This document shows, piece after piece, positions 4,071 through 18,832 of a stretch of 21,169 nt of DNA. The translations under genes were made by a program, and so were the position numbers. Numbering within the stretch: position 1 is the stretch's first letter; every line of letters starts with the position of its first letter. Origin of the DNA: a virus. The stretch spans positions 1 to 21,169 of IMG/VR virus record IMGVR_UViG_3300006641_000225. One strand, written 5' to 3'. The notes beneath the pieces are model-generated. The model was given only the letters and a program-made list of their open reading frames with translations, ran no database searches and was not told the origin of the DNA.

Positions 4071-5768
4071 TCAGGTTCCGATCAGTCCGTGCCCGTTGGT
4101 CGCGTGCATGTCGTCGATAAGGGCATAAACGCGTTCGGCGAGCTGCGCCAGCGTCACTGTGGCAGTGTTGAACGTCGTCCTAGTCGGGGTTCCTGTCGGC
4201 AAAGCCCATCCTGTCCGACGTGTTTTCAATATCTGCGTTCCGTTCAAGTTGACTGTCTGACCGCCCTTCACGCGCAGCACTTCCGCGAGCGCTCCCGCCG
4301 TCATGGCTTTGATCACCACGTCGGAAACTTCGGCCGAAGCCGTCACCGTCGTGAACTCGCCCGCGATCGACGCCATGGCGATGGCCTCGCCCGCGAGACT
4401 TTCGGCAAGAAGGCTGATGCCCGTGCCAAACCCCGCCGCGACTGTGCCAGAACTTGCATGCTCAAGGGTCAGGATGCTGCGCACGACGTTCGTGTCCGAC
4501 GTGCGATTGTGCATATGCACCCGCGTCGCCGGAGAAGTCGTGCCGATGCCGACATCGCCGGCCTTGTCGATCGACATCCTGTCGGACGGCGTCGTCGAAG
4601 CTGCAGGCGTTGTCCGAAGCAGGATGCGGCCCGGCGTAGCGCCCGAGGTTGCGTTGTCGTCGGCGGCTAGAAGGATATCCGCCACACGGCCCCAAGCCGA
4701 CCCATCGGATACGGCGCCGACGATGGCGAGCGCGTTGTCTCCGGACGACACCGCCGAATGTGCCCCAACCGTTGTAGTCCTGGATTTATGCCCGACGATT
4801 GCCGAAGATGCGCTGTTGGCCGCATAGTAAAAGCTCTGCATGGACGTCTGCTGCGAGCTTCCGATCACGGCAAAATTCGCCGATTGGCTGGCCGCCGACG
4901 ACATCGCCAAGCCCGTGATTGGCGCCGTGTATCCGATAACCTGCTTGCCGCTCGCATCGACAACCCACGGCGTCGAGTCCGGCGCCGACGCGTCTTCGAT
5001 CAGGATCGTATTACCCGAGCCGGTGTTGTTGATATGCAATAGACCGTTCGGGGTCACGGTCGTAGGGTTGCCAATCACGACTTCGCCCGAAGACGCGATG
5101 CGCATGCGCGTCGTCGGCGTGATTGCGCCGCTCGGGGTCGTGCGGAAGTCGAGATGCGCAGGCGTCGATCCAGCCGCAAACGTCGCCGACGCGAGCGCAA
5201 CGATCTGCGCAGCTTCATTGAGAAACGCCGTCGAGCCGGGCGCCCCGAGCGAGCCGACGAACGAAATCCGTCCAAGCGCATCACCGCTCTGAACTGCCGC
5301 CGCATCTTCGTCGCTCGCTATCTCCGTCGTCGCCCGGCTTTTGCCGAGCACGAGATAGGGCGCGAGCGCGTCTGCCGAATGCCGAAGGATGCTGAGCGAG
5401 GCATCCGTGCCCGTCGTCGGGATCTGCACCTTGGGCTCGATGCCGATGCCGACCGGAAGGGACTGGTTCGATACGTCAGCCGTGAAGATGAGGCGCCCGT
5501 TGCTGTCGAGCGTCGCGCGCCGCGTCGAATTCGAGAAGAATTCGAGTTGGTTACCGTTTCCCAGCGCGTATGACGTGGCGCTTTCGGTCGTGTCAGAGCC
5601 GGGCGACCCGACCGTCCAGGCCGATCCCGTCCACGTGTCGCCAATGTCGCCGGTGTTGTCGGGAGCCACAGAGTAGCCGGACGGAGGCGTGAACGTGTCG
5701 AGCGGGTCCACGTCCACCTTGTACTCGCAAACCCCGGTCGCGGTGACGATGATGCACTGAGTTGTCAT
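4071..5768 (-). CDS. Tail fibre / receptor-binding protein with repeated IG modules (565 aa)
   Basis: I set the start at the ATG at 5768, which overlaps the stop of the glycine-rich fibre gene (ATGA). The open frame runs further upstream but encodes Arg-rich sequence antisense-like to codon bias. The 565-residue protein has an N-terminal segment (1-60) that may attach to the tail, then beta-rich Ser/Thr/Ala/Gly sequence. Two related modules occur at about 205-248 and 380-422, each with RTTP, RM-I, a G-V-IG turn and an LH/VH-NxT ending. The second contains GIGTTSPATRVHM, a motif common in phage fibres. It ends in a short helix (TLAQLAERVYALIDDM) and a GHGLIGT tail that may trimerise. No S74 chaperone domain is evident. 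It probably contacts the host surface. Confidence 0.75.
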   Translation of the reverse strand: MTTQCIIVTATGVCEYKVDVDPLDTFTPPSGYSVAPDNTGDIGDTWTGSAWTVGSPGSDTTESATSYALGNGNQLEFFSNSTRRATLDSNGRLIFTADVSNQSLPVGIGIEPKVQIPTTGTDASLSILRHSADALAPYLVLGKSRATTEIASDEDAAAVQSGDALGRISFVGSLGAPGSTAFLNEAAQIVALASATFAAGSTPAHLDFRTTPSGAITPTTRMRIASSGEVVIGNPTTVTPNGLLHINNTGSGNTILIEDASAPDSTPWVVDASGKQVIGYTAPITGLAMSSAASQSANFAVIGSSQQTSMQSFYYAANSASSAIVGHKSRTTTVGAHSAVSSGDNALAIVGAVSDGSAWGRVADILLAADDNATSGATPGRILLRTTPAASTTPSDRMSIDKAGDVGIGTTSPATRVHMHNRTSDTNVVRSILTLEHASSGTVAAGFGTGISLLAESLAGEAIAMASIAGEFTTVTASAEVSDVVIKAMTAGALAEVLRVKGGQTVNLNGTQILKTRRTGWALPTGTPTRTTFNTATVTLAQLAERVYALIDDMHATNGHGLIGT

Positions 5769-6949
5769 CCGAGCACCTCGATAATCACCATGCTGCCGGC
5801 TGCGCCCGGCCCGCCGTTGGCTCCCGTTGCATTCGTGAAGGCAACCGCGCCGCCACCGCCGGCCCCCGGCCCCGTGCCCGTGCCGCCGACCGTCGCGCCC
5901 GACGTCGTCAGGCTGGTGATCGTCGACCCACCGCCCCAGAACGACCCCGCGCCCGTGCCGCCGACAAGCGTTGAGCTGACTTTGAGCTGCTGGCCATGTG
6001 AGCCGGCCGCGCCGGGGATCTTCACCGTTCCGGTCGATGGCGCGACGCCGGCAGCGCCGCCAATGCCGAAGGCGCCGGCCGCTGCCGTGGCCCCGCCACC
6101 GCCGCCGGCCGCCGCGAGAATGCCCGTCCCGCTGCCGAGCCGACTGAAGCCGCCGACGCCGCCGCGCCCGGTGGTCGAGGCGCTGGTCGCCCCGAGCCCG
6201 CCCGCACCGATCTGGATATCCAACTTGCCTGATGCGTTCACGGCGGCATCGAGCGTCGCCTTGGAGTAAAGGGCCACCGCAGTGGCTCCCGAGCCACCAC
6301 CACCACCGGCTGCGTAGGTCGTTCCCGACGCCACCGCGCGCCCGCCGCCGCCGCCGCCACCCGTGCAAAACACGAGCGCCGAGATCAGATTGCTCGGTAT
6401 CGTGTAGCCGAGCGATCCGGTTTTCGAGCTGGTGTAGGACACGAGATTGAGGTTGGTCAGCCGCCCCGTGAGCGCCGTCGAGGCGAGCCGCTTCATGGTG
6501 CCGGCGCTGTCGTCCCACGCCAGCAGCGTATCCGCCGCGTCGAGGCTCGATAGGGTCGAGACGAGGCCGAAGTGATTGATGAGGCCCTGGATCGAGAGCT
6601 TGCCGTGCGCCGTCGCGCTGTTGTCGTAGACCGGAAACCGGTCGTTCAGGTCATAGTCGGCCGTCCCGATCGTGGTCAGTGCGTTGAAATTCAGCGATAT
6701 CGTGCGGTCGGCCGTCAGATTGCCGCCGCCCGTGAGGCCCGTTCCGACCGAGATCGCGCGCAAGCGATCCGCGGCTCCAAAGGTCGCGAGATCCCACGTC
6801 GTGACGACGTAGCCGTTGCCGGTGGGGTTGACGCGGACGAGCTTGTCGGCATCCGAAATCCCCGCCAATGCCGGAAGCAGAGCCAACTTGCTCTGCACGT
6901 CGGCGAAGACCGTCAATAGCTCTGTGATATCGTCTGCCGTCTCAGCCAT
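5765..6949 (-). CDS. Tail fibre protein with polyglycine-rich tip domain (394 aa)
   Basis: The ATG at 6949 overlaps the upstream stop by eight bases (ATGGCTGA), which favours it over an upstream extension. Residues 1-60 form a short helical and linker region, and 66-88 contain ISVGTGLTGGG then TADRTISL, a typical fibre segment. The C-terminal 200 residues (about 192-394) are Gly/Ala/Ser/Thr-rich with runs of Gly at 197-203, 215-219, 282-286 and 364-367, and end in SMVIIEVLG. Repeated Gly stretches ending in a V-I-I/V-E strand are typical of the glycine-rich tail-fibre tip domain. By analogy with the polyglycine sandwich of T4-like gp38 adhesins it may present receptor-binding loops. It is directly coupled to the second fibre gene by ATGA. 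Confidence 0.75.
   Translation of the reverse strand: MAETADDITELLTVFADVQSKLALLPALAGISDADKLVRVNPTGNGYVVTTWDLATFGAADRLRAISVGTGLTGGGNLTADRTISLNFNALTTIGTADYDLNDRFPVYDNSATAHGKLSIQGLINHFGLVSTLSSLDAADTLLAWDDSAGTMKRLASTALTGRLTNLNLVSYTSSKTGSLGYTIPSNLISALVFCTGGGGGGGRAVASGTTYAAGGGGGSGATAVALYSKATLDAAVNASGKLDIQIGAGGLGATSASTTGRGGVGGFSRLGSGTGILAAAGGGGGATAAAGAFGIGGAAGVAPSTGTVKIPGAAGSHGQQLKVSSTLVGGTGAGSFWGGGSTITSLTTSGATVGGTGTGPGAGGGGAVAFTNATGANGGPGAAGSMVIIEVLG
6341..6361 (-). repeat. Glycine-codon run (GGC repeats) in fibre gene
   Basis: The sense strand reads GGT, five GGC, then GGG: seven consecutive glycine codons. Changes of whole triplets by slippage would alter Gly number without breaking the frame. 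Confidence 0.7.
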
Positions 6950-7409
6950 GGAACCGACCCGTCCAAATCTTATAGTGCAGACGGTACGGGGGCACATTGA
7001 ACGGCTGCGGCGAGCCGGAAACACGTTTCCGTCGATACATGCAGACCTCGCGAAGATAAACGATTGTGCCCGCGATGTAAACCGAATGGGCGAGCACGTG
7101 GTTGTCGGCCGTCTTCTCGATCAATGCACGTGCAACATTGGTCCCGGAGAGATCGGACCAATAAGTATCCGTCCCGAGATATCCGTTCGATACGAGACGG
7201 CAAGCGCCCATGAAGAATTCCGACCCCGCCAGACACGTCCCTATCTGCTGATCCGTAATCGTGAACACCGGCGTTGCCCGCTCGGCGAAAAATTTGTTGC
7301 CGATGATCTGGTTCCTATCCCAAAGCGCCGGCCGCTCGTGCGTGTCGAGCACCACGGTCCCATCCGCCCGTGTTACCGTCATTCGACCGCTGGCGATCTC
7401 GACGCCCAT
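6942..7409 (-). CDS. Small tail-associated protein, unknown family (155 aa)
   Basis: The ATG overlaps the preceding stop as TGATG. The 155-residue protein begins with a beta-rich segment (about 1-50: GVEIASGRMTVTRADGTVVLD), has mixed middle sequence with two Cys near 59 and 70, and ends with a basic/aromatic stretch (YRRKRVSG through PPYRLHYKIW). It lies in a set of three small genes between the lambda-J-like protein and the fibres, so it is probably a distal tail or baseplate-like component. I do not recognise the family. Confidence 0.6.
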   Translation of the reverse strand: MGVEIASGRMTVTRADGTVVLDTHERPALWDRNQIIGNKFFAERATPVFTITDQQIGTCLAGSEFFMGACRLVSNGYLGTDTYWSDLSGTNVARALIEKTADNHVLAHSVYIAGTIVYLREVCMYRRKRVSGSPQPFNVPPYRLHYKIWTGRFHG

Positions 7410-8166: not shown

Positions 8167-9228
8167 TCAGAAGTCGATTTGAAACGACTTGTTGTCGAGA
8201 TCGATGATGAATTTGCTATCCGCCGATCGCAGCAAGCCCGCCGTGACCGTGCCGAGGTTCGCCGTGATCGCCGAAAGCGACGCGGCCGAGATCGCAACCG
8301 CCCGGATCGTGCCGTCGACGATGACGTTGCCGTTGATGCCGACCGTCGAGACCCCGTTCACCGTCCCGATGCCGAACACACTCACGGGGTTGACGGTATT
8401 GGTCGGATGCGCGACCAGGAACCGATCTGCGACCACCGTGAACTGCGTGCCTTCGTTGTTCCCAGAGAGATCGATCAGGCCGGTGACGTGATTGTTGCGG
8501 TTGAGCGAGACCGTGAAGCGGCCCGACAGGCCGTCGACCGACTCGACGAGTTGATTGACGGTGTATTCCTGCCCACCGATCGCCGTCCGCACCGTAAGAA
8601 GCTGCGTTGCGAGCGCTTCCGTCAGTGTCGAGCGGGTCGTGCGCTCCTCATCGATCGCCGACTCCGTCTGTCCGACGCGGGCGAGGATGCTGATCAACTG
8701 TTGCGCGAACGCTTCGTCACCGTCCGCCCGCACCGTGCGCTCTTCAGCGACCGCCGCCTCAGCGTCTCCGATGCGCGCGAGCATCAACTCAAGCTGCGTG
8801 GCGAACGCATAGCCCTCATCCAACCGCGTCTGCTGCTCAACGCGGATCGAAGCGGTATTCCCGAGCCCCAGCAGACCGTCCCGAATGATCGTTTTCGCCG
8901 TGCGCGATGAGGCCGCGATCGCATCGTCCAGGCTTTCCTGCATCGTGTCGAAAAGCGCCTGCAGATCCGTCTGCAGAGACCGGATGAACGCCACCTGCGT
9001 CGTCAGCGTCTCGCCGTCGAGCGAGTCGAGCAGGTCGATCACTTCCTGGAGACGCGCGTTGATCTCATCAATTGCAGCCTGCAGCCGGGCGAGCTCGCTC
9101 GCATTGCTGGTTTCGGTCGCGAGCGCTTCATTGGTCGTGCGTCGAAGCTGGTCGACGAGATCGCGGCCCCAGGCGTAAAGATCCTGCTGAGACTGGCCGC
9201 GCGGCTGGGGAAGGTTAGCGATCGCCAC
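8167..9228 (-). CDS. Coiled-coil tail protein with lambda-J-like C-terminal region (353 aa)
   Basis: The GTG at 9228 is preferred: GGGGGAG precedes it closely and it overlaps the nozzle gene by 14 bases. An ORF start further upstream adds only Arg/Ser-rich sequence. Residues 15-230 are strongly helical and coiled-coil-like, with three imperfect repeats of about 31 residues at 131-224 (EER-x-x-R, then EA-A-QL and ARVG). Residues 263-353 resemble the C-terminal region found in lambda J-type tail proteins (DUF1983-like): FTVVADRFLVAHP, then FGIGTVNG, GINGNVIVDGTI and a final DSKFIIDLDNKSFQI. In J-type proteins this region lies next to the receptor-binding tip. Here it probably forms a fibre stalk linked to the nozzle. 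The DUF assignment is from memory of motifs. Confidence 0.7.
   Translation of the reverse strand: MAIANLPQPRGQSQQDLYAWGRDLVDQLRRTTNEALATETSNASELARLQAAIDEINARLQEVIDLLDSLDGETLTTQVAFIRSLQTDLQALFDTMQESLDDAIAASSRTAKTIIRDGLLGLGNTASIRVEQQTRLDEGYAFATQLELMLARIGDAEAAVAEERTVRADGDEAFAQQLISILARVGQTESAIDEERTTRSTLTEALATQLLTVRTAIGGQEYTVNQLVESVDGLSGRFTVSLNRNNHVTGLIDLSGNNEGTQFTVVADRFLVAHPTNTVNPVSVFGIGTVNGVSTVGINGNVIVDGTIRAVAISAASLSAITANLGTVTAGLLRSADSKFIIDLDNKSFQIDF
8557..8838 (-). repeat. Three imperfect ~31-residue helical repeats
   Basis: Within the coiled-coil tail protein, residues 131-161, 162-193 and 194-224 align by eye. Each unit opens with EQQTR or EERT, has a Glu-Ala/Phe-Ala-x-QL core and ends in ARIG, ARVG or RTAIG. 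They probably lengthen the stalk. Confidence 0.6.
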
Positions 9229-11305
9229 CGGCTCCCCCGTCGTGCTCGATGCCCACCGCTTCCGTCCACGTGACGCCGCCCGCAATGTTGACGGTCCATG
9301 ACACCCAACGGGCTTCAATGCGGGTCAGGCATGCGCCATACGCATTCATGGGCGCGCCCGTCAGGCTCGCCGCCGCCGTCCCGGTCGGGATGTGCTCGGT
9401 GGGATAGGATGCCGCCTCGCATTGCACGGACGACACGAGAATGCCGCTGGTGCTGTCGCCCGAATACGTCGGAGAGTTGGTCGCCTCATCGTACAGCTGC
9501 AGGATCGCATTCGATGTCGTAGACGACGTTGCCGCCGCCGTGATCCAAATCAGATACCAGCTGCTCCCGAGGTGACGGATACCCGATCCGCTCACGCCCG
9601 ACGTTGCATCGATCACGCCCAAGGTGAGATCGAAATTCGCGGTCGGCGCGGAACTGAAGGCTGTTGCCGAAAGCTGCAGCCGCGCCCCGCGTCCAGCGCC
9701 TTTGACGATCGCGCTCAGCGTGTACGTCGTGCCAGAAACGAATGTGGGGGTTTGTCGCGCGAAGTGGGTATTTGTAGCGGTACCGTCGTCGATCAGAGAC
9801 GTGCCGTTCGTGCCCCCGAGATGATCCGCCACGCCTCCGGCCGTCGTCGAACGCACCTCGAACCAATCCGCGCCCGTCAGATCGTCCGCGTAGGTGAGCA
9901 TGTTTGTCCGGGTCGCGCCGACCGTCGCTTGTGCCCGCCCGAGGTTGTGCCGACGATAATTCAGCGTCACCGCCACACCCTTGGCCGTATCGACGAGCGG
10001 GACCGTGCGGCTGAGCCACGTGTTGCGACCAGGTCCGATCTCGGTTTCCGACGTGGCAATCGATGCCGGCCGGTTGTCCCCGGTGTAGAGGCTGAGATAT
10101 CCGCCCGTGTCCACCGCCGCCCATTGCTTGCGGCTTTCGCGCATGAGCGGGCTATCGAGCGACGCGGATATGCTGTCGATATTGGCCGATCCGAACAAGG
10201 CAATCAGGGCCGCGCTATCGTCGAGCGACGTGCCCTCGCGGCCCATTTCCCAGGCCATCATCAGCGCTTCGTCGTCCCAGGACCACCGATTGTCCGCATA
10301 GGACCATATAAGCTGCTCATTCGGGGTTGACGAACCGTTGGCGGGATAGGCGATGATCACGGCCCGCTTTGACAGATCGAGCGAAGCGGAAATCCGGTGC
10401 CGGTAGGAGTAATTCAGCCTGTCCAGAAAAAATTTGTTGACCTTGCCTTCGCCGACGTTCTGGCTCCGGAGCCCGTCGAACAGGAAAAACCCCTCCTCGC
10501 TCACATAGAACGTGTGCGGGCCGAACGGGATGACGCCGTGCGGGCTCATGGCGCCGCGTTGGGTTTCGACCTCATCCTTCTGAAACACCGTCGAGCCGCC
10601 CGTGTAGACAATGCGGCTGATCATGCGTTCCTGAAAGATCGCTCCGGCCTCTCCACCCCTGATCTTGACGAACCCGCCGCCCGCCGCCGGCATCTCGGTT
10701 TCGCCAGACTGCCGCGCTGTGTCCGGCGTCCACCATGTGCAATCGTTAAAGGCGCTCCACCGAAGCGTCCGGCCGAAGCCCACGAGCACATGCGGCCCGA
10801 CGCGGCCGATGGCGTCCACCGTGCGCGGGGCATAGGTCTCCTGTCCCGCGACCTGTCCGGCGTCGGGCACATCGGTGAACGTCGCGTCCTCGCCCCACCG
10901 GAACTTCTGCAGCGGCACGCCACGCGCACCCGCGAGGATATTGTCGCCGAACTGCTCGAAGCTCCACACCCACTCGGCATCGGCCGTCGCATAGCCGGCG
11001 CTCCGGGACAGATCGGCCGGCACCCGGTTGGCCAGGCGATAGATGGCCCGCGCCTCGGCTAGAAACAGATGCTGCTGCGCCGCACCGCCAAGCCCCGTGT
11101 AGCACGAGAACGCCCCAATCACGGTTCCCGACGTGACGCGGGCGTTGTCGTCATAGCGCGCCAGCGCGGGCTTGGCCGTGTACCGGCCGCCCTTGCTGAT
11201 CACGCCCTTCGCCGTCAGAAGCCCCGCGCCCGTCTTCGGCGCGTCCGGCGTCCATTCGCCGAACTCGACCCGTTGCATTCGAGCGAATGGGCGTTCTTCA
11301 GCCAC
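9215..11305 (-). CDS. Tail nozzle/stabilisation protein with inserted lectin-like domain (696 aa)
   Basis: The start is a GTG that overlaps the upstream adaptor stop by eight bases. Residues 1-460 look like the beta-propeller nozzle or DNA-stabilisation proteins of short-tailed phages (P22 gp10/T7 gp12/SU10 nozzle class): repeated strand motifs, many Trp, and segments such as HTFYVSEEGFFLFDG and QLIWSYADNRWSWDD. Residues about 463-645 form a separate module beginning TNMLTYADDLTGADWFEV, with YTLSAIVKGAGRGA, SSWYLIWITA and ending CEAASYPTEHIPTG. This is the signature of a carbohydrate-binding-like domain common in phage spikes. The last 50 residues (ARWVSWTVNIAGGVTWTEAVGIE) return to the sequence expected at the end of the propeller protein. 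The gene directly follows the adaptors, as expected for a protein that closes the tail channel. Confidence 0.75.
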   Translation of the reverse strand: MAEERPFARMQRVEFGEWTPDAPKTGAGLLTAKGVISKGGRYTAKPALARYDDNARVTSGTVIGAFSCYTGLGGAAQQHLFLAEARAIYRLANRVPADLSRSAGYATADAEWVWSFEQFGDNILAGARGVPLQKFRWGEDATFTDVPDAGQVAGQETYAPRTVDAIGRVGPHVLVGFGRTLRWSAFNDCTWWTPDTARQSGETEMPAAGGGFVKIRGGEAGAIFQERMISRIVYTGGSTVFQKDEVETQRGAMSPHGVIPFGPHTFYVSEEGFFLFDGLRSQNVGEGKVNKFFLDRLNYSYRHRISASLDLSKRAVIIAYPANGSSTPNEQLIWSYADNRWSWDDEALMMAWEMGREGTSLDDSAALIALFGSANIDSISASLDSPLMRESRKQWAAVDTGGYLSLYTGDNRPASIATSETEIGPGRNTWLSRTVPLVDTAKGVAVTLNYRRHNLGRAQATVGATRTNMLTYADDLTGADWFEVRSTTAGGVADHLGGTNGTSLIDDGTATNTHFARQTPTFVSGTTYTLSAIVKGAGRGARLQLSATAFSSAPTANFDLTLGVIDATSGVSGSGIRHLGSSWYLIWITAAATSSTTSNAILQLYDEATNSPTYSGDSTSGILVSSVQCEAASYPTEHIPTGTAAASLTGAPMNAYGACLTRIEARWVSWTVNIAGGVTWTEAVGIEHDGGAGGDR

Positions 11306-12017
11306 GCGGGTTCACCATCGCTGCCATGGGCGTGGGCTTGATCGTCGGCGAGCCGTCCTGCCGCGTCTGGACGTTGACCGGTGCCAGCGGCGATTGCCGG
11401 TGATTGTCCATGGCCGCCTTCAGGTCCGCCAAAGCGGCCTGCTCCATGATCTGGGCGCGCTGATACAGGTCTTGATTGCCGAGCACGTCGAGCGCGATGA
11501 TCGCCTTCGCGCGGGATCGGATCAGAACCTCGCCATCCGTCATCCACGCATTCGTGTCGCTGCCCGCCGAGAGGGGAGCCAGCTTCTTGACGCCCGTCAA
11601 ATAGATGTTGAACACGCCGTTTGGGATCGGCCCCAGGCGGATGCTGGCGCCCTCCCGAGCGTAAAACCGCGGCGTGCCGTTTGCGACTGTCGTCGAATAA
11701 AAGTTATCCAGCCACAGATACGACGTACCGGCCAGCCGATTAGCCGCGCCGCTGGTTCGGTTGATCACGCTATCTATCGTGAGTAGATCCTCGCCCGACG
11801 TGATCGAGCCACCCGCCGCCGTTTTCAGGTTCGTGGGCAGCGTGTAGGTCTCTGTCCCGGATACAGTATCGATCCGAAAATGCCCCCGGTTGAACGTGAA
11901 CGGCTGCGACTGATACGTCTTGATTGCAGACTGGATCGCGTCCGTGATTTGGTCCAAGAGATCGTACCACGTGGTCTCGTTGGCGATGCGGTCCCGCATG
12001 GTTGCAAGCGTTGTCAT
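11298..12017 (-). CDS. Head-tail adaptor protein, second tandem copy (239 aa)
   Basis: I chose the ATG at 12017, which overlaps the upstream stop as TGATG; a TTG three bases earlier is less likely. The 239-residue product is a clear paralogue of the preceding gene: 32 of 60 residues are identical in the N-terminal block (TLATMRDRIANE through TYTLPT), and 31 of 54 in the block around RLGPIP through DTNAWM to DVL. It has an extra C-terminal tail of about 35 residues, rich in Pro and polar residues. The family looks like the gp11/SU10-type adaptor that forms a ring under the portal. A position just before the nozzle gene fits. Confidence 0.72.
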   Translation of the reverse strand: MTTLATMRDRIANETTWYDLLDQITDAIQSAIKTYQSQPFTFNRGHFRIDTVSGTETYTLPTNLKTAAGGSITSGEDLLTIDSVINRTSGAANRLAGTSYLWLDNFYSTTVANGTPRFYAREGASIRLGPIPNGVFNIYLTGVKKLAPLSAGSDTNAWMTDGEVLIRSRAKAIIALDVLGNQDLYQRAQIMEQAALADLKAAMDNHRQSPLAPVNVQTRQDGSPTIKPTPMAAMVNPRG

Positions 12018-12664
12018 CAATACCCCCAGGGTCGAATGCGACGCGGCAGAACGTCGGTTGATTTTCTCCGCAGTGCGATGAGCGCATCGCGCTCGGCGAT
12101 CGCCGCTGCACTCATCAACTCCGTGTCACGCAGAACGTCCCGAGCCAGCAGCCGAACGGCTGTTGCCCGCGTCAACGCCTCGCCGGCCACCATCCATGCG
12201 TTCGTGTCGCTGGATGCAGTGAGGGTCGATAGCTTCTTGGTCCCGTGGATGTAAATCGAGTAGACCGCATCCGGGATCGGCCCGAGCCGAAGCTGATCGC
12301 CAACCCGCGCGAACGCGGTCGGCTGCCCCGTCGTGGTCGTCGAGTTGAGGATTTCCAACTCATCGGGATCGACTGCACGCATGGGCGATCCGGTGTTGTT
12401 GTTCCGGACCACGGCGTTGTCGATCTCGATCAGGTCTTCGCCCGTCGCAAGGGCGGCCCCGGCTGGCGTCAGCAGAGCGGTCGGGAGCGTGTAGAACTCC
12501 TGAGCGGCTACCGTATCCAGGCGGAACCGTGCCTCGTTGAAGGCGAAGCGCTCGGCCTCGTGAAACTCGATTGCCGAGCGTATCGCGTCGTCGAAATGTT
12601 CGAGCAGGTCATACCGCCCGATCTCATTGGCGAGACGCGCCCGCAATGTTCCGAGTGTGCTCAC
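12017..12664 (-). CDS. Head-tail adaptor protein, first tandem copy (215 aa)
   Basis: The GTG start at 12664 has GGGAGG about eight bases upstream and no nearby ATG. The 215-residue product starts with a helical segment (TLRARLANEIGRYDLLEHFDDAIRSAI split by a short turn), then a beta-rich centre with FYTLPT, RLGPIPD and KKLSTL, and a helical end. This arrangement matches phage adaptor proteins (T7 gp11/SU10 class), which bind the portal and nucleate the tail. It lies after the capsid and decoration genes and is followed, with TGATG overlap, by a second copy. Family assignment rests on motif pattern and gene order. Confidence 0.72.
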   Translation of the reverse strand: MSTLGTLRARLANEIGRYDLLEHFDDAIRSAIEFHEAERFAFNEARFRLDTVAAQEFYTLPTALLTPAGAALATGEDLIEIDNAVVRNNNTGSPMRAVDPDELEILNSTTTTGQPTAFARVGDQLRLGPIPDAVYSIYIHGTKKLSTLTASSDTNAWMVAGEALTRATAVRLLARDVLRDTELMSAAAIAERDALIALRRKSTDVLPRRIRPWGY

Positions 12665-12679: not shown

Positions 12680-13078
12680 TTAGGCGTAGCGGGTCGGATC
12701 GAGGACATACTCGATCATGACCGAGGCGGCACCCGTCGTCGCAGCCGTGCCCGTCTGCGTGTAAGCGACCAGGATTTCCGTCGCCGACGTGAGCTTGGCT
12801 GCCTTGCCGGTGTAGCGGGTGAGACCGAGCGCGGTCTCATCCACGTCACCAGCCGCCAAATAGGCGTCGTCGTCCGACGCGTGTCCGACCTTGAGCACGT
12901 TGGTCGTCGCCGCGTTAAACACGGTCGTCACGAGCACCGTGACGGCCACAATGATCGCTCCGGCCGGCACGGCTCCCGCCGAGACGCCAGCCGTAATGCC
13001 GGTCGTGTCAAACGAGATGTCCTTTCGGAGCACGTGGGGCACCCAGGAGTGCGGCCCTTCAGTAGCGCTTGCTGCCAT
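12680..13078 (-). CDS. Probable head decoration or minor capsid protein (132 aa)
   Basis: The 132-residue beta-rich protein is Ala/Thr/Val/Gly-rich, with a hydrophobic core at about 38-55 (AGAIIVAVTVLVTTVFNAAT) and a segment GHASDDDAYLAAGDVDETALG. Similar small proteins encoded next to N4-gp56-type coats carry an NAATTNVL-VG---DDD-Y-AAGDV pattern as I recall them, usually annotated as structural or hypothetical. AAGGAG lies ten bases before the ATG. Its place directly after the coat gene fits a decoration or cement protein that sits on the shell, but the exact role is inferred. The hydrophobic stretch is more likely strands than a membrane helix. Confidence 0.6.
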   Translation of the reverse strand: MAASATEGPHSWVPHVLRKDISFDTTGITAGVSAGAVPAGAIIVAVTVLVTTVFNAATTNVLKVGHASDDDAYLAAGDVDETALGLTRYTGKAAKLTSATEILVAYTQTGTAATTGAASVMIEYVLDPTRYA

Positions 13079-13096: not shown

Positions 13097-14167
13097 TCAG
13101 CTCGCCGCAGCGGCGTAGGTCGAAACGACAACCGTGCCGAAATCGACAGAGTTGTACACGGTCTTCTTCATGCCGAAGATGCAGCCCGCCTCGACGCCGA
13201 GCTTGTTCTTGTAGTCGAACAGCTCTTCGTTCCAGTCGAACTGACCGGGGCCGAACTCCTTGCCGAACCCCATGCCCACGGCCTGCGCGCCGCACAACAC
13301 CGCACGCCGCACGCTGGTCTGCGCCGCGCCCGAGGTCGAGTGAACCCCCTGCGTGACACGTGTGGCCTCGTGCAGAATGACGTTGTTGTACATGCCGAGA
13401 GCACCCGTGAAGAGCGGGTTCTTCGAGGCGTTGCCGCCGCTCATTGCCGCCTTCTGGATGTCCACGTACTGACCGGTCGAGGTATTGGTGCGCAGCGACG
13501 TCACCTGATAGGGATGCAGGAACATCACGTAATGCGGCTCACCGCCGATCATGATCGGACGGATGAGAGGCGTCGCGACCTTCGCCTTCTCCACCGCTTT
13601 GTCGATCAGATCGAGGGTGAAAACCTTCGTGCTGTCAGCCTGCACCGCCTGATCGGTCGAAAGCGCACCCGCCCGCAGAATGCGAGTGGAACTCGGCGCG
13701 ACGATCGCGTTGTTGCCGGCGTACCGGGCGTCGGTCTGCACCGTGTAGCCGCAGATGTGGTTGAAGAACGTCGCATCGATGCGATCGCTCCACCAATCCT
13801 TGAGGCCGCTCATCGCTTCCTCGCGGACGCTCCACGGGATACGCTGCTCGCTCATCTTGCCGGCCGAGCGAACGGCGTGGCGAAGCTGATTGATCACGAT
13901 ATCGTCGGTGTAGGTGCTCAGCTCCTCTTCGTTGCCTTCCAACGTCGAGTCACCAACCACACCATCGCCGGCCAGCTGCATGCGCAGCGTCAGTCGAACG
14001 CGATCGCCGGCGCTCTTCTGGGTATCCGCCTTGATCTGGATCAGGGACGAATTATCGGTGCCCATGAACTTTTGCGCGTAGGTCTGCTTCAGCGCTTCAC
14101 GGGCGAGACGCTTTGACCATAGCTTGACGGTCTCAGCGTCATTCAAACCATATGCGGTGTCTGCCAC
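13097..14167 (-). CDS. Major capsid protein, N4-gp56 family (356 aa)
   Basis: The start is a GTG with AAGGAG nine bases upstream (a second AAGGAG lies further out). The 356-residue product shows the pattern of the N4-gp56 family major capsid protein: VWSKRLAREALKQTY (14-28), IQIKADTQKSAGDRVRLTLR with MQLAGDGVVGDSTLEGNEE (43-83), and INQLRHAVRSAGKMSEQR with the DWWSDRID segment (91-130). It ends in EFGPGQFDWNEELFDYKNKLGVEAG. It is a HK97-fold coat by family. Scaffold just upstream and decoration protein just downstream agree. A 144-base non-coding gap with hairpins precedes it, which could favour separate high expression. Confidence 0.9.
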   Translation of the reverse strand: MADTAYGLNDAETVKLWSKRLAREALKQTYAQKFMGTDNSSLIQIKADTQKSAGDRVRLTLRMQLAGDGVVGDSTLEGNEEELSTYTDDIVINQLRHAVRSAGKMSEQRIPWSVREEAMSGLKDWWSDRIDATFFNHICGYTVQTDARYAGNNAIVAPSSTRILRAGALSTDQAVQADSTKVFTLDLIDKAVEKAKVATPLIRPIMIGGEPHYVMFLHPYQVTSLRTNTSTGQYVDIQKAAMSGGNASKNPLFTGALGMYNNVILHEATRVTQGVHSTSGAAQTSVRRAVLCGAQAVGMGFGKEFGPGQFDWNEELFDYKNKLGVEAGCIFGMKKTVYNSVDFGTVVVSTYAAAAS

Positions 14168-15389: not shown

Positions 15390-17309
15390 TCACGCCGCGT
15401 TCTGCGGCGATCCCATGATCCGTCCAGCCGCCTCGATCGGGCGGATGTTGCTTTCCATCTCCTCGCGGCGAGCCTTGGCCGCCGTCAGAGCCGCGTTTGC
15501 CTGCTTGCCGGCCACGTCCGCCTGAGCGCCAGCCATCGCCAGCTGCTGTTGAGCCTGCGCCATCGGGTCGGGAGGCGCCGGTTCATTGATCGACTTCGCG
15601 ATCTGGGCCGACAGAGACGACGGCAGCGGACTGTATTCGATCATCTGAGCCAGCACCTGCGGCGCGATCGGCATCTCTTTGAGGATCGGCATCATCTGAA
15701 CCAGCATGCCCCAGACGGCTTCCTTCTGGTTCTGGCTCATGGGCGCTTCGTCTACGACGATGTCATACTTGACGACCCCCGGCTGACGCACGAGCGGCCG
15801 GTATTCGATGCCGCGATCGCCATTGATGCGGATCAGGCGGCCGTCGCTCATGTACCTCACGATGTAGTCGAGCAGCACACGGCCCTGCATCTTGCGATAG
15901 CGCCGAAGGCTATCGAAGAACGTGGCCAAGATCGCATAGCCCGAGCGCTTGCGCTGGGCCTCAAGCACGCCGGCCTGCTCCCGCTGCACGAGCCCGAGCA
16001 TTTCCAAATTAATGCCGGAAACCTGCGGCAAGCTCTCAACCGCAAACTCCAGAATGGATTGGATGCCCTGCGGCAGCGGCGGAGCGGTTCGTTCCTTAAT
16101 TCGGTTGCCCGCAATCGCGCCCGGCTGCAGCTCGATCATGCTATCCGGCCGCGCCCAATCGTCCTGCGCCTTCCGCGCGTTGACGAACGCATTTTGCTCG
16201 TAAAACAGCCCGCCCTTGCTGTTGGTGTTGATGATGTGGAGCAACTGCGAAAGCTGCTTGTTGGCCCACATCTGCGGGTCCACCATGGCCTTGACGACGC
16301 CGTACCACGTGTTGCGGTTGCGATCGCGCTTGCCCGTGATGCAGGTGAACGTGAACGCGCCGCAATCTAGCTTCTTCGTCGGCTCCACGAGCACCGAGCC
16401 CGCATAGATCGCCTGCTTGTAGACACGGCGCTTGCCCTTGACAGCAGGAGGCGGCACAAACCCCTGCGTCAAGTAAAGCTCGGCCATCTGCTCAACCTGC
16501 TCAGCCGTCAGATCGGTAATCTGTCCCGACTGCGGGTCTTGCACCGCATAGGCGGGCTCCATGTCCCACCATTGCATCTGGATGACGCGAATAGGCCGGG
16601 TTGCAGCCGATGACGGGTTGCCGTCCGTCGCCCGGTACTGATCGCCGGCAATGTTGTTGTGCAGATCCGAGCCGGTTTCGATCGCCTTGTCCTGCTGGCC
16701 GCGCACTTCGTCGATCTTGCTCGGCCACTTCGATTTGAACTCATCCGGGTCATAGTCGCGCATGCGATACACATAGCGCGCATCCACGAGATTCCGCTTC
16801 TTGGCCGTTGGGTCCCAGCCCATTTCGAGCGGGTCAATCCGGTGCACGAGAACGTCGCCCTCGGCGCTGGTTTCATAGCTCAGCGTCGTCTCGGTCCAGC
16901 CCATACCGGAGATGATCGTGTCAGAAAACGCGTCGCTTTCCTCGTCCTCCGCGTCGCAGTTGTCGCGCACCCAATCGGCCGCCGCGCCAAGCATCTCGCT
17001 GGCCTTGGCGTCGCCGATCTCGCGCGGATAATACTGCACGGCCTGCCGATTAAGCACCTCGGCGCCCATCACCGCAGACACCATCGGATCGACGCGGTTG
17101 AACGTGATCGGAACGCGCATTTCTTCCATCATGGCCGCGCGATCGTCCGCCGACCATTGGTCGCCGCTCGTGAACTCGTACCACCGCTTGGCGTCGGCGC
17201 GCCATCCGCTCTGATGCTGATCCGCGCGGCGCTGCCACTCATTGAGCCGCTTGACCAAGGCTTCCGCATCGCGCGGCGTGTCGACGCTGTCGTCTGCTGT
17301 GTCGCTCAT
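15390..17309 (-). CDS. Portal protein, P22-like family (639 aa)
   Basis: The ATG at 17309 overlaps the terminase stop as ATGA and is preferred over a GTG three codons upstream. The 639-residue protein is close in size to P22 gp1 (725 aa). Visible family traits are an N-terminal helical region with WYEFTSGDQW, then RVPITFNRVDPMVSAVMGAEVLNRQ, a DTIISGMGWTETTLSYE segment, HRIDPLEMGWDP, and a C-terminal long helical Ala/Gln-rich tail (about 570-639). This matches the dodecameric portal ring through which DNA is packed and released. Gene order terminase-portal-scaffold-coat is the usual one. I see no truncation. Confidence 0.88.
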   Translation of the reverse strand: MSDTADDSVDTPRDAEALVKRLNEWQRRADQHQSGWRADAKRWYEFTSGDQWSADDRAAMMEEMRVPITFNRVDPMVSAVMGAEVLNRQAVQYYPREIGDAKASEMLGAAADWVRDNCDAEDEESDAFSDTIISGMGWTETTLSYETSAEGDVLVHRIDPLEMGWDPTAKKRNLVDARYVYRMRDYDPDEFKSKWPSKIDEVRGQQDKAIETGSDLHNNIAGDQYRATDGNPSSAATRPIRVIQMQWWDMEPAYAVQDPQSGQITDLTAEQVEQMAELYLTQGFVPPPAVKGKRRVYKQAIYAGSVLVEPTKKLDCGAFTFTCITGKRDRNRNTWYGVVKAMVDPQMWANKQLSQLLHIINTNSKGGLFYEQNAFVNARKAQDDWARPDSMIELQPGAIAGNRIKERTAPPLPQGIQSILEFAVESLPQVSGINLEMLGLVQREQAGVLEAQRKRSGYAILATFFDSLRRYRKMQGRVLLDYIVRYMSDGRLIRINGDRGIEYRPLVRQPGVVKYDIVVDEAPMSQNQKEAVWGMLVQMMPILKEMPIAPQVLAQMIEYSPLPSSLSAQIAKSINEPAPPDPMAQAQQQLAMAGAQADVAGKQANAALTAAKARREEMESNIRPIEAAGRIMGSPQNAA

Positions 17310-18832
17310 GCCGCCCACGCTGATTTAGGCGCTCGGCGCCGCTGATATCGATCCGGATTGTCGGGAATGCTTTCGGGAACGTGGCCGCATGCGCCCGTCA
17401 TGTACGCATCGGCGCAGTGCGATGCCCAATCATGGTGGGGCTCGCTCAGATACGTGCCGCGCTTGTCGTCCCATTTCTTGCGATAGTTGTCGAGACACTG
17501 GATACCGCGCGCGCAGCGAACCTCGTCGAACCAGCTCGCGGCGAGCAGCCGACGCGCGGCTTCGATCGCCTGTTGCTTGTCGGGGATGCGCGGCACCACG
17601 CGGAACGTCAGCCCTAGCCCACGGGCCACATCGACCGTCGATTGAGCGCCGGGCATAACCCAATGCGAGTTGTCGAGATCGTGCGGGCCGTAGTGCGTCC
17701 CGTATATCCAACCATGCTCGGTCGCGCGGTCGCGGATGACGCGGGCATAGTGATCGACGCCCTCGCCCGTGTTTTCATAGTAATCGATAAAGTGGAACAT
17801 ACCGCCGTGTGTCTGGTAAAACCACACTGCCGTGCTGTCATCCTTGCCGATGTCCCAACACGTGTGCACCGGCCGCGTCGGGTCGATCGCGATCTTGCCG
17901 ATGCGGCCCTGCTCACGGGCCTTGAGCATCTGGGTCTGGAAATAGGCGCCCTGCACAGACGCGTTGAACGCCTCCGGCAGAACGGACGGATATTCCCTCA
18001 TCATGTCGTCAGGCCCGATCGCCTGGCGCTTGATGACGTACCACGCGCGCTGCTCTGGCGAGAGCGCGACCTGGTGCTTGACTTCCAGGTCTCGGAAGTA
18101 GTCGTCCATCTCGCGCGGGATCGTCACCAACGCGGGATCGTCCACATAATCGGGGTGTGCGTGCCACGGTGAGAAGTGCAACTTGAATTGCTGCAGGGAA
18201 AGTTGCCGCCCGAGCTTCGCCACGCGCTCGGCATCGCTCACCAGATCGTAGAAATCGCCGCCCGCGCCTTCGGCCGTGCTCTCGACGAATATCATCTGTC
18301 CGCGATGCACCGTACCGAAGGCACCCGTCCTGATCTCTCGCGCCTTCTCGGGGTGCTTCACGCTGATCTTGCCGAACTCAGACACGTGCAATATCTGCAG
18401 CGTGCCGCCGCGGTGGCTCGTGCCGACGCTCACAGATGATCCGTTCTTCCACTGCAACTCAAAGGCGTTTTCCTTCGTGAGCGGATTAGCCTCGCGCACA
18501 AGCTGGGGCAGCCCATCGTAGGCGTATTTGATCTTCGCGAGCTTGTCCTTGGCGTCGTCAATCGTCAGGTCGACGATGCCGGCCGCCGTTGACGGACGGA
18601 ACGTGCACGTGTCCGCGATAAACAGCGCAATGAATGTGCTGAACCCCAGCTGCCGCGCCTTGGGGATGACGTTGAGGGTGTGCATCTCATCCCATAGCCG
18701 GCGCTGGGCGGCATTCGGCACAAACGACACGGCGTTGCCGGCCGCGTCGCGGATGCGATAGAGGGTGCAGAGCCGCCACCACCGATCGGTGTATAGCTTC
18801 GCAACCTGTTCTCGGGCCGCGTCAAGCGCCAT
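17306..18832 (-). CDS. Terminase large subunit, ATPase and nuclease (508 aa)
   Basis: I chose the ATG at 18832, which overlaps the small-terminase stop by 11 bases; the longer frame adds only ten unlikely residues. The N-terminal ATPase carries a deviant Walker A, KARQLGFST (about 58-66), a Walker B-like LHVSEFG (148-154) and a motif-III-like VESTAEG (183-189). The C-terminal RNase H-like nuclease shows HTCWDIGKDDSTA (first Asp about 327), a middle HYGPHDLDN segment and a late HDWASHCADA with acidic residues near 468-475. The enzyme cuts concatemeric DNA and pumps it into the head through the portal. Its stop overlaps the portal start (ATGA). Size and order are normal for this class. Confidence 0.9.
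   Translation of the reverse strand: MALDAAREQVAKLYTDRWWRLCTLYRIRDAAGNAVSFVPNAAQRRLWDEMHTLNVIPKARQLGFSTFIALFIADTCTFRPSTAAGIVDLTIDDAKDKLAKIKYAYDGLPQLVREANPLTKENAFELQWKNGSSVSVGTSHRGGTLQILHVSEFGKISVKHPEKAREIRTGAFGTVHRGQMIFVESTAEGAGGDFYDLVSDAERVAKLGRQLSLQQFKLHFSPWHAHPDYVDDPALVTIPREMDDYFRDLEVKHQVALSPEQRAWYVIKRQAIGPDDMMREYPSVLPEAFNASVQGAYFQTQMLKAREQGRIGKIAIDPTRPVHTCWDIGKDDSTAVWFYQTHGGMFHFIDYYENTGEGVDHYARVIRDRATEHGWIYGTHYGPHDLDNSHWVMPGAQSTVDVARGLGLTFRVVPRIPDKQQAIEAARRLLAASWFDEVRCARGIQCLDNYRKKWDDKRGTYLSEPHHDWASHCADAYMTGACGHVPESIPDNPDRYQRRRAPKSAWAA

Follow-up and report, generated by a model that had tools for sequence, protein, structure and literature searches.

The DNA analysed here is a virus record of 21,169 bases, and this whole stretch is referred to as the window. 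Its structural genes lie on the minus strand in the order large terminase, P22-type portal, a 339-aa protein, a PF13252 capsid protein, a 132-aa protein, two adaptor copies designated A and B, and a nozzle. The portal protein (15390..17318, minus strand) is recognized by PF16510 P22_portal with an E-value of 3e-107, and the 339-aa protein encoded between it and the capsid protein occupies the position of a scaffold. The major capsid protein (13097..14167, minus strand; PF13252, E 2e-89) served as the anchor for finding relatives. Between the capsid gene and A, the 132-aa protein (12680..13078, minus strand) holds by synteny the position of a head decoration protein and is kept in relatives; it has a weak match to phrog_20969, named ‘Rz-like spanin’ (E 3e-5), a label that looks wrong for a protein in this position. 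Adaptor copy A (12017..12664, minus strand; 215 aa, PF24175) starts with a GTG at 12664 and terminates with a TGA ending at 12017. Adaptor copy B (11298..12017, minus strand; 239 aa, PF24175) starts with the ATG of a TGATG stop/start overlap (12015..12019, minus strand) in which B’s ATG and A’s TGA have one base in common. Both the coordinates of the adjacent genes and their TGATG junction are as an earlier, sequence-only reading of this DNA had described them. The overlap is consistent with translational coupling, and the list of open reading frames also holds an alternative TTG start one codon upstream of B’s ATG.

Directly downstream of B is a 696-aa protein of the nozzle/stabilisation type (9215..11305, minus strand; phrog_3287 virion structural, E 5e-40), which is a candidate partner of a lower adaptor ring. 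Nozzle homologues of about 490-510 aa come after the adaptor in relatives as well. The nozzle of the window is some 200 aa longer at its C-terminal end than that of single-copy relatives (about 492 aa), and this extension has matches to phrog_5939 and phrog_11600. Farther along the same strand, a glycine-rich PF21722 protein (5765-7024) and a fibre-like protein with PF09327 Phage_Tail_Tip (8167-9318) are probably encoded by tail fibre genes. The A-B pair occurs, identical at the nucleotide level, in two further metagenome contigs, which excludes an artefact of a single record.

A and B are clearly paralogous, with 92 of 202 residues identical (46%; BLASTP, E 1e-57). The local identities first counted by eye were nearly right: 30 and not 32 of the 60 residues near the N-terminus are identical, and the 31 identities of the RLGPIP-to-DVL block fall among 53 and not 54 positions. 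Each protein belongs to PF24175 SU10_adaptor, A with 62.6 bits (E 9e-17) and B with 62.1 bits (E 1.3e-16) against a curated cut-off of 27, and the two genes sit between the capsid genes and the nozzle gene as members of this family do. The AF2 models of A (pLDDT 94.4) and B (pLDDT 92.2, with 64-68 in the C-terminal tail), each predicted alone as the sequence-only reading had proposed, both adopt the adaptor fold, a helix bundle with an inserted dock domain. Foldseek matches the two models to the solved podophage adaptors of SU10, VP1, A4 and GP4 (7z47, 8zkk, 9k09, 8jov; E 1e-7 to 1e-10) and more weakly to the rings of crAss001; unrelated folds for A and B are ruled out by these matches to the same adaptors. 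A broken or fused gene is likewise ruled out, as both frames are open and are identical in three records, so that the earlier claim of two unbroken copies holds. That both copies are also maintained is borne out indirectly, since each keeps 37-38 of 48 family-conserved positions, a number within the range of single-copy relatives. The A/B dN/dS is about 0.3, at a dS of 1.7 that is near saturation.

In a tree of 126 adaptor proteins, A and B are sisters with a support of 100/96 within a clade of single-copy phages, and they remain sisters (100/98) in a second tree of 60 rows from which the C-terminal tail columns had been removed. Because the sisters are nested among phages with a single adaptor, the pair is a lineage-specific tandem duplication; Pfam assignment, fold, gene order and tree thus agree with the duplication of a head-tail adaptor gene originally proposed. 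The nearest relatives by capsid (L012, L016, L170 and L274, with capsids 67-72% identical to that of the window) have the same gene order and carry at the same place one adaptor gene only, of about 217-230 aa, against the window’s two. Pairs of single-copy adaptors at that capsid distance average 43-47% identity; identity to the close single-copy relatives is 39-44% for A and 31-37% for B. Judged by these identities, A is the conservative copy, with a divergence that is ordinary for its capsid distance, and B is the more diverged one.

The two copies differ most plainly at their C-termini. In SU10 the C-terminal embracing loop of the adaptor enters between the clip domains of the portal (PMC9509320), and the adaptor C-terminus is likewise at the portal in T1, DEV and P-SCSP1u. 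Measured from the terminal helix’s last conserved leucine, the tail comprises 15-20 residues in 114 of 116 single-copy adaptors, with a family norm of 17-18, and its end is hydrophobic or aromatic in 106 of the 116. A has a 17-aa tail with the end RRIRPWGY-COOH (RRKSTDVLPRRIRPWGY), a sequence that fits the family’s short putative embracing end. B carries after its last helix a 39-40-aa tail that contains Pro, Gln and Asn and is without an embracing end, a net gain of about 23 residues over the family norm. B had been described as having gained a 35-residue Pro-rich tail; the tail is present, but it is 39-40 residues long with 6 prolines, and the change, although an extension, is better put as the loss of a portal-gripping C-terminus plus an extension. 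With the fold kept and the portal end gone, B might be an adaptor-fold virion protein with a different site of action, serving, for instance, as a collar or fibre-docking piece around the neck, and its flexible tail (pLDDT 64-68) and a dock-domain identity to relatives of 31%, compared with 40% for A, would suit such a role. This is nevertheless quite unlikely, as the identity of B’s helix bundle to relatives is retained and paralogous adaptors, where known, are arranged as coaxial rings (PMC10172136).

The search for related phages with one or two copies, suggested on first reading, yielded the single-copy relatives described above and two further multi-copy lineages. With the window as lineage 1, these are lineage 2 (L231, L233, L254, L255 and L256, the first copy of the L231 phage being taken from the near-identical contig L235) and lineage 3 (L216 and L264). 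Each of the eight multi-copy loci has one copy, and no more, with a 17-residue end, and the tails of its other copies have 23-54 residues. One locus (L264:2-2084) contains three tandem adaptor genes of 227, 237 and 228 aa, the first of which reaches the contig edge, and only the third has the embracing end. The embracing copy comes first in lineages 1 and 2 and last in lineage 3. A single clade for all copies without the motif is rejected (p-AU 7e-30), so the portal end was lost repeatedly, in separate lineages, at least three times among related viruses; one ancient duplication common to all two-copy phages is ruled out by the tree and the AU test. Within lineages 1 and 2, all six copies that lack the motif have lost Glu44, which follows helix 2, and their partners retain it. 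An equivalence of this residue with the portal-binding Glu50 of cyanophage P-SCSP1u was not supported, as Glu50 falls about six residues earlier in a hand alignment via T7 gp11. The two-copy loci of lineage 2 have an extra gene for a 520-556-aa protein between capsid and adaptors (L231:2605-4170, L257:1427-3097, L255:1052-2638) that is absent from the window.

Two-copy loci are rare, with 6 double and 109 single loci among the non-redundant ones that have both flanks, a frequency that serves as a rough guide because the search for extra loci consisted partly of targeted scans. Such rarity would be expected of a transient or redundant duplicate, in which one of the two genes can be dispensed with or encodes an assembly-time variant. 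We consider this very improbable for A and B, given frames that are intact at 46% identity, the conserved family positions that both keep, an asymmetry that recurs in other old duplications and the low dN/dS, even if the latter is weakened by the near-saturated dS. It is about an even bet that multi-ring podophage necks evolve repeatedly via tandem duplication or triplication of the adaptor, exactly one copy keeping the portal-gripping C-terminus and the extra copies replacing it. If this were true, the sorting of embracing ends seen in three lineages would amount to a rule by which ring number, and neck length with it, could be read from sequence.

The expectation that short-tailed phages have one adaptor species holds for most relatives of the window, but multi-ring necks are known from phiCrAss001 and GP4. 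In phiCrAss001 five stacked dodecameric rings, made from four paralogous proteins, lie between the portal and a hexameric muzzle (PMC10172136). These rings (R1-R5) are paralogous and of the adaptor fold, as is the window’s pair, although the Foldseek matches are weak; the four paralogues are 15-31% identical and belong to the Crassvirales, whereas the window has two proteins, 46% identical, alongside a P22-type portal and a PF13252 capsid. Instead of the three or four paralogous ring genes of a Crassvirales-like neck, only two adaptor-family ORFs are found in the 21-kb window, a record that may be a fragment.

The Ralstonia podophage GP4 (PDB 8jov) has two adaptor species with 12 chains each, gp81 and gp82 (PMC11945409), and ‘one to three dodecameric adaptors’ have been described with reference to the GP4 and crAss001 work (PMC11784390). 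The models of A and B each match both GP4 adaptor chains by Foldseek. The two GP4 adaptors were reportedly found to be two stacked dodecamers in a 2023 study in J Mol Biol. Their homologues in Burkholderia phage BcepIL02, gp53 and gp54, are encoded by adjacent genes of the SU10_adaptor family; only gp54 has a hydrophobic/aromatic motif at its end (APIRTKATFF), and the other copy has a polar tail. In GP4 itself, gp81 terminates in RTRAQFF. GP4 and BcepIL02 share with the window two adjacent SU10_adaptor-family genes with the C-terminal motif on only one, but their pair is very diverged and is not the sister of A/B, which is a younger, separate duplication. Common descent of the two pairs is also opposed by the Burkholderia pair barely aligning to the A/B profile. 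SU10 and T7, in each of which the adaptor is gp11, have the same fold and gene position and a C-terminal portal-embracing element as in A; they build a single adaptor ring from one species, in contrast to the window with its B copy devoid of an embracing end. The T7 adaptor grips the portal with its embracing helix, with the end of the helix before it and with the dock, and its helix 1-2 loop touches the nozzle. No profile alignment of the family to T7 gp11 was obtained, and the T7 contact residues are thus not transferable to A and B.

The duplicated adaptors have probably split their work, with A on the portal and B as a second ring in a portal-A-B-nozzle neck. A single adaptor gene underwent tandem duplication within this podophage’s lineage. 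A would keep the ancestral place as a ring on the portal clip, its C-terminal end wedged between portal subunits, and B, having lost that end, would most likely form a second ring, with A above it and the hexameric nozzle underneath. We infer 12 subunits in each ring, this stacking order, a longer neck, and the portal as the partner of the upper ring.

The sequence-only reading had listed a mixed ring, stacked rings and split roles, among which the evidence favours stacked rings. The main rival is an alternating mixed ring, unlikely in our view, in which 6 A and 6 B would share one dodecamer and hard-wire two environments above the 6-fold nozzle and six fibres. Neighbouring adaptor subunits of SU10 do differ in their fibre-dock loops, with one nozzle platform contacting two adaptors (PMC9509320), the helix 1-2 loop of T7 has two alternating conformations (PMC6702177), and at 46% identity A and B could still share subunit interfaces. 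Stacking of A and B is favoured over alternation by the triplicated locus, whose three adaptors and one embracing end are hard to fit to a two-protein ring, by the 12+12 chains of the two-adaptor phage GP4, and by the fact that each extra copy has lost the portal end, a loss that in a mixed ring would leave half of the portal sites without the conserved embracing end; the crAss001 paralogues are stacked as well. Both the window and lineage 2 have their genes in an order that suits the stack, portal...A-B-nozzle, whereas the order in L216 and L264, with the embracing copy last, is at odds with it. Of the podophage necks solved so far, most contain a single adaptor ring, and the paralogues of crAss001 and GP4 are too old to show the origin of an extra ring; the window would represent a younger step of ring gain, with single-copy relatives close enough to compare.

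Divergence was also compared by domain. In the dock and helix 4, 22 clade-consensus residues are found only in A and 8 only in B, compared with 8 and 10 in helices 1-3, a contrast with a Fisher p of 0.066; some 9% of control pairs are equally extreme. The trend is mostly shared by lineages 2 and 3, with the L264 copies partly disagreeing. That B seems to have diverged in the dock and helix 4 but not in helices 1-3 is no more than suggestive of stacking, and it was rejected as proof because the control pairs make the effect weak. Arg17, in the helix 1-2 loop, is changed in B; this loop is the nozzle-contact region in T7, and the change counts against B as the nozzle-side ring.

No close two-copy pair was found among named phages, and A and B had no match when queried against bacterial genomes. 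The capsid query of bacterial genomes returned 11 loci, mostly from alphaproteobacteria and each with at most one adaptor. The closest relative in a bacterial genome is the single-copy locus L274, in a Hyphomicrobiaceae MAG, with a capsid 67% identical to that of the window, which suggests an alphaproteobacterial host.
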